DNA from: Deltaproteobacteria bacterium RBG_13_61_14
Lineage (GTDB): Bacteria; RBG-13-61-14
Assembly (NCBI GenBank): GCA_001797815.1
Contig: MGQK01000129.1
Location: 9,580 to 29,914, forward strand
Direction of reading: 5' to 3'
Length of the DNA: 20,335 bases
The position numbers and the translations under genes were made by a program. Under the pieces are notes generated by a model. It worked only from the letters and a program-made list of their open reading frames with translations, ran no database searches and was not told where the DNA came from. Positions within the stretch are counted from its first letter, which is position 1. Every line of letters starts with the position of its first letter. This document shows, one piece after another, positions 7,561-19,968 of this stretch.

Positions 7561-7606
7561 TTCCTGCTTCCATAACCCGGGCGAGCCGGAACCCAAGAGA
7601 AAAAGA

Positions 7607-7780
7607 GTTTCGCGCCAAGCCGCAAAGGAGCCAAGACGCCAAGCGCCAGGGGGGTAAGCCCCCAAGCTTGGAGACCCCTGCCGGCTTCCTCTCACTCCTC
7701 CTCCCCCGGCCCCGCCGCCAAGTCGAAACCACTCGCCAAGCAGTCACCCCTTGGCGTCTTGAGGTTCTTGGCGTCAAGCT
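7607..7780. repeat. Imperfect inverted repeat built of CGCCAAG modules
   Basis: The left arm (7607-7643) contains GTTTCGCGCCAAG and CAAGACGCCAAG; the right arm (7750-7780) contains CTTGGCGTCTTG, a perfect 12-bp complement of 7632-7643, and a second CTTGGCG at 7767-7773. A smaller GC-rich hairpin CAGGGG / CCCCTG (7648-7680) lies inside. A further CTTGGCGTGAAAC at 7934-7946 is complementary to 7607-7619 at 12 of 13 positions and brackets the neighbouring 123-bp repeat as well. It has the look of a dispersed, non-coding intergenic repeat. No gene is apparent in 7561-8057. Confidence 0.7.
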
Positions 7781-7806
7781 CTTTCCTCTTGTTCTTGAGT
7801 TTAGCG

Positions 7807-7929
7807 ACTTAGTGCTTCGATGCGCAAATACGATGAAATATTATTTCTGCTTGCTTGATGAGTTTGCTCACTCAGCACTAAGTCCTGAGTAAATAAGTTC
7901 GTCATCGAACTTATGAATCGAAGGACTTA
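7807..7929 (-). repeat. 123-bp structured repeat, copy A
   Basis: Read on the minus strand this matches 19846-19968: the first 65 bp agree at 64 positions, the last 24 bp at 23, and the 34-bp segment between is unrelated but of identical length. Internal structure includes a 9-bp perfect hairpin ATAAGTTCG / CGAACTTAT with a 4-base loop, ACTCAG / CTGAGT around a 9-base loop, and terminal complementary arms CTTCGAT / ATCGAAG. The motif GGACTTAGTGCT or its complement recurs at both ends and in the interior. Coding potential is absent. It could be a MITE-like element or a structured RNA or DNA site. Confidence 0.9.
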
Positions 7930-7993
7930 GAGCCTTGGCGTGAAACCGCTTCTTTCTTTTTTCGTCTCGTTTCCTGCCAAAGAAGAATGGCTC

Positions 7994-18397: not shown

Positions 18398-19848
18398 GAA
18401 GACGCGAATTCATCAAGACTTCGGCCACGGCCTTGGCCGGCGCCGTGTTGGGCGGCAAAATCATTTCCGCGGCGGAAAAGCGGCCCAATATCCTCCTCAT
18501 CCTGGTGGACCAGTTGCGCCAGCCGCGCTGGACCCCGGCGGGGGTCACGCCCAACCTTGACCGCCTGGCCCAGACCGGGGTCTCGTTCACTCAGCACTTC
18601 GTGAGCGCGGTGCCTTGCTCGCCCTCGCGCGCCTGCATGATCACCGGCACTTACACCACCCAAAATCACATGCACAGCAACTGCGACTTCCAGGTGGGCG
18701 AGCGCCAGCCCAGCCTGGACCCCAGGATCCCCACCCTCGGCCACATCTTCCGCGACGCCGGCTTTCGCACTCCCTACCGGGGCAAGTGGCACCTGACCCG
18801 CAAAGCCGACCGCGACCCCCGGGACCCGCTCCGCGCTTACGGCTTCGAAGGCTGGAAGCCGCCCGAGGCGCCTTTCGGCGGCGCTCCTTACAACGGCGCG
18901 GTCATGGATCCGGTCTATGCCCGCGAGGCTAAAGCCTGGCTGAAAGACCCGAACCACCACCGCCAGCCCTGGCTCCTGGTCTGCTCGCTGGTCAATCCCC
19001 ACGACATCTGCGAGTGGCCCCGCTACTACCCGCAGACCCGGCTCCGGCCCGTCCATACCGACACGCTGCCCGACAACTGGCGCGACGACCTCTCGACCAA
19101 GCCCGGGTGCCAGCGCGAGTTCCAGGAACGTTACCAGAAGCTGGCCGGATTTATGGACCCCGGTGACGAGAAAGCCTGGCGCCGCTACCTGGACTATTAC
19201 CTCCATTGCCAGCGGGACGTGGACGAAAACGTGGGCGACGTGCTCCGGGCGCTCGAGCAATCCGGCCAGCGCGAGAACACGATCGTGGTCTTCACCTCCG
19301 ACCACGGCGAAATGGCCGGCTCGCACGGGCTTCGCACCAAGGGCTGTTTCGCCTACGAAGAGGTCATGAACGTGCCCCTGATTTTCTCCTGGCCCGGTCA
19401 TCTCCCGGCCGGCGCCGTGACCGGCGCTTTTGCCTCCAACGTGGACGTGGCGCCCACCCTGGCCGGTCTGGCCGGGATCACCCGCCTGCCTTACCTGGCC
19501 GGCCGCGATCTCTCGCCGGTGCTGCAAGACCCGGCCCGCGGCTCGGTGCAGGATGAGATTCTTTATCACCAGGGCTGGGAGCTGGAGGTGGGACTGAGCA
19601 AGCAGAGTCGCACTTCCGCCTTCTCCCACCCGGCGCACGTCCGCTGCCTGCGCGACCGGGAATGGAAGTATGCCTATTACTTCAGCCCGGACCACGACCA
19701 GGTGGAGCACGAGCTTTACCACCTGAAGGACGATCCCCTGGAGATGACCAACCTGGGGAATGATCCGGGCTACGAGCCCAAGCGGCGGGAGATGTTCGCG
19801 CGGCTGATGGAGCGGGAGCAAAAGCTAATCGAGGAGTTTGAGGCCTAA
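18394..19848 (+). CDS. Tat-exported sulfatase (FGly type)
   Basis: This 484-residue enzyme of the alkaline phosphatase/sulfatase superfamily hydrolyses a sulfate (or phosphate) ester. The N-terminus MRRREFIKTSATALAGAVLGG is a twin-arginine signal, so it should be exported folded to the periplasm. PNILLILVDQLR carries metal ligands D39 and Q40, and PCSPSRACMITGTY contains the C-x-P-S-R motif whose Cys75 is converted to formylglycine. TSDHGEMAGSHGL is the second metal site. The sulfatase core looks complete. I chose the ATG overlapping the preceding TGA; another in-frame ATG lies 24 bases upstream. The natural substrate is unknown. A maturation enzyme (anSME or FGE) is required but not present in the window. 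The stop codon TAA lies within the 123-bp repeat. Confidence 0.93.
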   Translation: MRRREFIKTSATALAGAVLGGKIISAAEKRPNILLILVDQLRQPRWTPAGVTPNLDRLAQTGVSFTQHFVSAVPCSPSRACMITGTYTTQNHMHSNCDFQVGERQPSLDPRIPTLGHIFRDAGFRTPYRGKWHLTRKADRDPRDPLRAYGFEGWKPPEAPFGGAPYNGAVMDPVYAREAKAWLKDPNHHRQPWLLVCSLVNPHDICEWPRYYPQTRLRPVHTDTLPDNWRDDLSTKPGCQREFQERYQKLAGFMDPGDEKAWRRYLDYYLHCQRDVDENVGDVLRALEQSGQRENTIVVFTSDHGEMAGSHGLRTKGCFAYEEVMNVPLIFSWPGHLPAGAVTGAFASNVDVAPTLAGLAGITRLPYLAGRDLSPVLQDPARGSVQDEILYHQGWELEVGLSKQSRTSAFSHPAHVRCLRDREWKYAYYFSPDHDQVEHELYHLKDDPLEMTNLGNDPGYEPKRREMFARLMEREQKLIEEFEA

Positions 19849-19968
19849 GTCCTTCGATTCATAAGTTCGATAACGAACTTATTTACTCAGGACTTAGTGC
19901 TGAGTGAGCAGATAAGCCTTTGCGAGTAAATTAATACGTGATTCTATTTGCGAATCGAAGCACTAAGT
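19846..19968 (+). repeat. 123-bp structured repeat, copy B
   Basis: This is the inverted partner of 7807-7929 (64/65 and 23/24 matches in the two arms, unrelated 34-bp centre). Here it starts with the TAA stop of the sulfatase gene and ends inside the GTG start of the next gene. Possible stems include ATAAGTTCG / CGAACTTAT (9 bp), TAAGTCC / GGACTTA (left end with interior), ACTTAGTGCT / AGCACTAAGT (interior with right end) and ACTCAG / CTGAGT; several exclude each other. Confidence 0.9.

Follow-up and report, generated by a model that had tools for sequence, protein, structure and literature searches.

A short MITE-like repeat with conserved hairpins, very probably a mobile element of CTWAG sites, in a deltaproteobacterial genome and other bacterial phyla

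Introduction

The enterobacterial repeat ERIC (IRU) is 127 bp long, has imperfect inverted repeats, is non-autonomous and occurs in many copies in many genera (PMC2229807, PMC10969869); its termini carry TA (PMC2229807). BOX of Streptococcus pneumoniae is modular, with internal modules that change length and fold independently (PMC3049150), and the GTAG/CGTC REPs are palindromes of 20–40 bp (PMC3733652). Chunjie, a MITE of Geobacter uraniireducens, has a full length of 235 bp and varies in size (PMC10969869).

The element described here was recognised by two copies in the window, by which we mean the whole analysed stretch of 20,335 nucleotides from Deltaproteobacteria bacterium RBG_13_61_14 (contig MGQK01000129.1). 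It resembles ERIC in its size, imperfect inverted repeats, non-autonomous character and many copies, but differs in its 5-bp CTWAG duplication, its unrelated sequence and its presence in several phyla. RUP and BOX of S. pneumoniae are likewise small non-autonomous repeats; however, RUP has been linked to IS630-Spn1 and to TA targets, whereas no partner was found here, and boxB is repeated in tandem in BOX, whereas the present element takes up palindromes, often nested, at a few sites. Membership in the TA-type MITEs (ERIC or RUP, with TA at the termini or target) was rejected, the target being the 5-bp CTWAG. Hairpins, intergenic repeats and many Y1 genes in the genome recall REP/REPIN with RAYT, and the GC-rich inserts are REP-like; the 5-bp duplication and the absence of a link to a Y1 gene differ. 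Chunjie is also a MITE of a deltaproteobacterium but is set apart by its length of 235 bp and its size variation. Overall, the element works like ERIC, RUP or BOX but belongs to no family tested. Its near-constant ends across phyla, fixed-length free centre, compensated hairpin, CTWAG target and second class of palindromes are unusual, and a literature search by element sequence and by target motif found no description of it.

Results

Copies in the window

The copies at 7807–7929 (+) and 19846–19968 (−) were aligned without gaps, and their arms are identical at 87 of 89 positions. The sequence-only reading had reported two oppositely oriented copies with near-invariant arms, and this holds with slightly shifted boundaries. 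More precisely, a 113-bp body is framed on either side by a 5-bp direct repeat (7808–7930 and 19845–19967), and the parts are as follows:

7808..7812, no strand: target-site duplication CTTAG, left of copy 1 (from the flank statistics of the family and empty sites)
7813..7925, + strand: body of copy 1, 113 bp, centre subfamily A
7813..7823, + strand: left terminal inverted repeat of copy 1 (family consensus TGCTTCGATTC; here TGCTTCGATGC)
7831..7864, + strand: variable centre of fixed length, about 34 bp, its most variable part about 20 bp (from alignments and identity)
7872..7892, + strand: central hairpin ACTCAG-CACTAAGTC-CTGAGT (from sequence and pair counts)
7893..7914, + strand: subterminal hairpin ATAAGTTCG-NNNN-CGAACTTAT, close to the right end (from compensatory changes)
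7915..7925, + strand: right terminal inverted repeat GAATCGAAGGA of copy 1
7926..7930, no strand: target-site duplication CTTAG, right of copy 1
19845..19849, no strand: target-site duplication CTAAG of copy 2 (top strand), holding the TAA stop of the sulfatase ORF
19850..19962, − strand: body of copy 2, in opposite orientation, a diverged member of centre subfamily B
19963..19967, no strand: second CTAAG target-site duplication of copy 2

The window contains the end motif four times, where 0 were expected (none in shuffles). The consensus terminal inverted repeats TGCTTCGATTC and GAATCGAAGGA match at 10 of 11 bp, as imperfect repeats typical of a MITE. The G+C content of the element is 0.38–0.39 compared to 0.61 for the window, which agrees with the A+T richness of MITEs. 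The predicted lack of coding capacity was borne out: the ORF listing contained no ORF confined to the 113-bp body, as expected for these short non-coding elements.

Copy 1 is located between lpxC and an outer-membrane beta-barrel gene. The start of copy 2 coincides with the stop codon of a sulfatase gene, whose TAA (19846–19848) belongs to the CTAAG target. The sulfatase protein is intact because copy 2 was inserted just after the stop codon, with the target supplying the TAA. A different dispersed repeat (CGCCAAGACGCAAAGGCGC / TTGGCGTGAAACC type) was observed beside several copies (window positions 7600–7800 and the flanks of L001, L008, L012 and L020).

Copy number, length and centre

About 25 copies that have both ends are dispersed in the window genome, a 4.74-Mb assembly in 132 contigs, which also contains partial ones. 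The sequence-only reading had named two outcomes that would speak against it, only two copies in the genome, or a variable centre length with decaying arms, and neither occurred. Including flanks, the copies in the window genome are 122–124 bp long; added GC-rich palindromes extend others by about 28, 56 or 80 bp. Across all genomes, the bodies of 66 uninserted copies measured 111–115 bp, nearly all 113–115 bp, and 41 of them were 114 bp long. Mean pairwise identity among 46 diverse copies was 0.89 for the arms and 0.35 for the centre, compared to 0.26 for the shuffled centre. Constraint thus acts on the arms, while the centre keeps its length but varies almost freely in sequence; the earlier suggestion of constraint on arms and spacing instead of decay is supported.

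The 34-bp centres of the window copies had been called unrelated although equal in length. The low similarity stands (12 of 34 positions identical), but neither centre is unique. Two centre subfamilies, A and B, are present in the window genome and match each other at 12–15 of 34 positions; the centre of copy 1 is of type A (31/34 to L002), and that of copy 2 is of type B in a diverged form (29/34 to L012). Both centre types are multicopy. The unrelated-looking centres thus represent two drifting subfamilies and not a swap. An exchangeable or replaced centre, which had been proposed, found no support: the centre drifts at fixed length inside the subfamilies, no swapped centres were seen, and the existing inserts, which are GC-rich palindromes, favour four other positions.

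Target site and empty sites

Among 121 copies, the flanking 5-mers were CTTAG/CTTAG in 75, CTAAG/CTAAG in 15 and mixed in 3 (Fisher p 2.7e-14). The base next to the 5-mer was G or C in 0.70 of cases on one side and 0.69 on the other, compared to about 0.46 elsewhere. The paired 5-mers and the adjacent G/C indicate that the target is the palindrome S-CTWAG-S, that both orientations are used and that 5 bp are duplicated.

Empty sites were sought in related genomes with joined-flank queries. Precise empty sites were found at orthologous loci that hold exactly one CTTAG (L229 vs. L275/L276; L231 vs. L283/L277); in more divergent ones, 5 bp were kept at the junction with differing letters. In addition, many empty copies of a dispersed Desulfobacterales repeat read GGATTACTTAGAAACTG, and the copy at L124 carries the element between two CTTAGs. 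From the flanking 5-mers and the single-CTTAG empty loci, we conclude that this is very probably a non-autonomous MITE-like transposon with a 5-bp duplication; of the options offered by the sequence-only reading, the MITE is the one upheld by the terminal inverted repeats, the duplication and the empty sites.

Hairpins

Pairing was intact in 97.3% of cells of the 9-bp subterminal hairpin near the right end. Of its 9 pairs, 5 have changed on both sides, and A-T stands in place of its G-C pair in 15 of 46 copies. In the central hairpin (ACTCAG/CTGAGT), 94.6% of cells were paired, and A-T to C-G changes were seen in three copies. Shuffle and sliding controls were clearly lower for the whole structure, although the shuffles leave shared ancestry in. 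The conservation of two hairpins with compensatory changes indicates that structure matters. The terminal pair 9-119, by contrast, is broken without compensation in 10 of 46 copies, so that the terminal inverted repeat does not behave like a stem and is more likely a protein site. On direct reading, the central AGCACTAAGTCCT is an exact inverted copy of the right end, CTTAG and the left end.

At the usual CTTAG site, L083 and L085 contain the right half of the element alone (CTAAGTCC...GGACTTAG or GCACTTAG) and look as if the left half had been lost exactly at the central CTAAG.

Palindromes inserted inside the element

Inserts were detected in 51 of 102 copies of the first set. The units are GC-rich, often 24–28 bp long with GAGCTC at the tip, and further units are nested at that tip. 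Four main insert sites were recognised: before GCTCACTC, inside CACTCAG, between CCTGAG and TAAATAAG, and near the tip of the right-end hairpin. The terminal 25–30 bp (approximately) of the element never carried an insert. Inserts are not the same in the two members of the orthologous pairs L106/L241, L153/L235 and L156/L234. Likewise, L015 and L024, duplicated loci with about 91% identical flanks, differ by three units; the palindromic units are therefore gained or lost in place. With the element as a scaffold, a second process of insertion can be studied in these palindromes, which nest at preferred sites.

Nested GC-rich units such as CATTCGGCCCGAGCTCATGGCCGAGGG were observed at the GAGCTC tip in L018, L024, L025, L088, L135–L148, L156 and L227. 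A GC-rich unit nesting at this tip is common to the window genome and Deltaproteobacteria MAGs.

Distribution among genomes

A single pattern scan over 84,980 species genomes detected the element in MAGs labelled Deltaproteobacteria/Desulfobacterales, Nitrospirae, NC10 and Pseudomonadota, and 15 of the matching genomes had 1 to 33 matches apiece. In the phylum of G064, 26 of 395 sampled genomes were positive; in the window's own phylum, two of three, the window genome included. No copies were found in plasmids, phages or IMG/VR. The spread among phyla probably includes horizontal transfer. The near-identical ends in several phyla point either to a widely shared, unrecognised mobilising enzyme or to a very strong constraint on a structured DNA end.

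Search for the mobilising enzyme

A transposase or recombinase with matching termini, which the sequence-only reading had proposed to look for, was not found. No long or autonomous element carrying these ends came up in the window genome, nor in a paired-end search of three complete genomes; the other genomes were covered by sampling. In four genomes, the DDE_Tnp_1 and rve loci had no CTWAG-flanked inverted repeats. Solo ends, examined as possible relics of a long parent, were neighboured by ordinary genes (HycI, YceD, CDP-OH_P_transf, GntR/FCD and others). An apparent long element in G295 turned out to be two separate partial copies.

Discussion

We consider it very probable that this repeat of 113–114 bp is a MITE-like, non-autonomous transposable element with an S-CTWAG-S target and a 5-bp duplication, moved in trans by an enzyme. 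Such an enzyme would recognise the ends, namely the imperfect 11-bp terminal inverted repeats and the adjoining hairpin arms. The element would be inserted as double-stranded DNA, in either orientation, into S-CTWAG-S, and the central 5 bp would be duplicated. Judging from the duplication and the symmetric target only, the cut may be staggered, as with a DDE transposase. The ends, hairpins and spacing could be kept because only architecturally intact copies are still mobilised, with the centre serving as a free spacer, while GC-rich palindromes may separately enter the few internal sites that the mobilising enzyme tolerates. With a defined target rule, natural empty and filled sites and covarying hairpins at hand, the missing enzyme can be sought directly.

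Three points count against this model. The searches described above yielded no autonomous partner. A plain DDE transposon needs no conserved hairpins. Furthermore, the intact copies of the window genome all occupy CTTAG and never CTAAG, a stronger bias than would be expected from a symmetric target. Movement might depend on the folded nucleic acid, the hairpins and the central AGCACTAAGTCCT acting as an internal guide or synapsis device for the ends, the circle junction or the target. We regard this as unlikely; if true, it would be a structure-guided transposon of a type not yet described. The central CTAAG is unchanged in copies on CTAAG targets, which argues against guiding of the target, not against pairing of the ends. 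The compensated right-end and central hairpins would also suit a single-strand derivative of the HUH, IS200/IS605 or REP/RAYT type, in which a Y1 transposase reads the end hairpins and cleaves CTTAG at both ends with the central CTAAG as a guide. The complementarity of AGCACTAAGTCCT to both ends and their junction and the approximately 20 Y1 transposase genes of the window genome fit this scheme; however, the left and right 5-mers vary together (CTAAG/CTAAG 15, mixed 3) while the central CTAAG is constant in the copies read, the flank preference is symmetric with both target orientations used, and none of the Y1 loci has the element or its ends nearby, so that we hold it to be distinctly unlikely. 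Membership in IS200/IS605 or REP/RAYT, marked by a linked Y1 gene and no target duplication, was rejected in view of the 5-bp duplication and 20 Y1 loci without the element.

Integration of a circular form by a tyrosine recombinase, with CTTAG, located between the 11-bp inverted repeats, as the 5-bp overlap, appears very improbable. The joined ends GAATCGAAGGA-CTTAG-TGCTTCGATTC do resemble a recombinase core site, and the empty and filled sites are compatible with it, but targets have no arm sites beyond S-CTWAG-S. Moreover, copies on CTAAG and CTTAG are interspersed among near-identical elements and do not form lineages, as judged by reading the copies and not from a tree, and no recombinase was noticed in passing beside any copy. 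The least probable account is a structured RNA or transcription element kept primarily by host selection. Compensatory changes in two hairpins, folds stable relative to shuffles and the intergenic position of the window copies would agree with it, and that much of the structured-RNA option raised from the sequence stands; the Rfam covariance models, however, gave nothing credible at gathering or permissive thresholds, and no known RNA family was matched. Orthologous loci of close relatives lack the element, the uncompensated breaks of pair 9-119 are unfavourable for a functional stem, and G-T vs. A-C mismatches had no clear strand bias. A hammerhead-like reading of CTGAGTA...GAA was ruled out by hand (core G8 missing, no stem I).

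Further repeats and genes were observed alongside the element. The approximately 20 Y1 (REP-type) transposase genes of the 4.7-Mb window genome are located at L029–L048. Several of them have motifs in common, in the flank or in the gene, for example GACCTGACCCCA. In G061, G063 and G068 (L083, L085, L124, L169 and L173–L202), dozens of copies of a repeat ending in CTTTCTTGCCATCATGAACCGGCTCTAAAAGGATTACTTAGAAACTGGAAAACTAAAGGG were seen. These are often co-oriented and 0.5–3.3 kb apart with genes between them, an arrangement that looks like a gene-cassette array.
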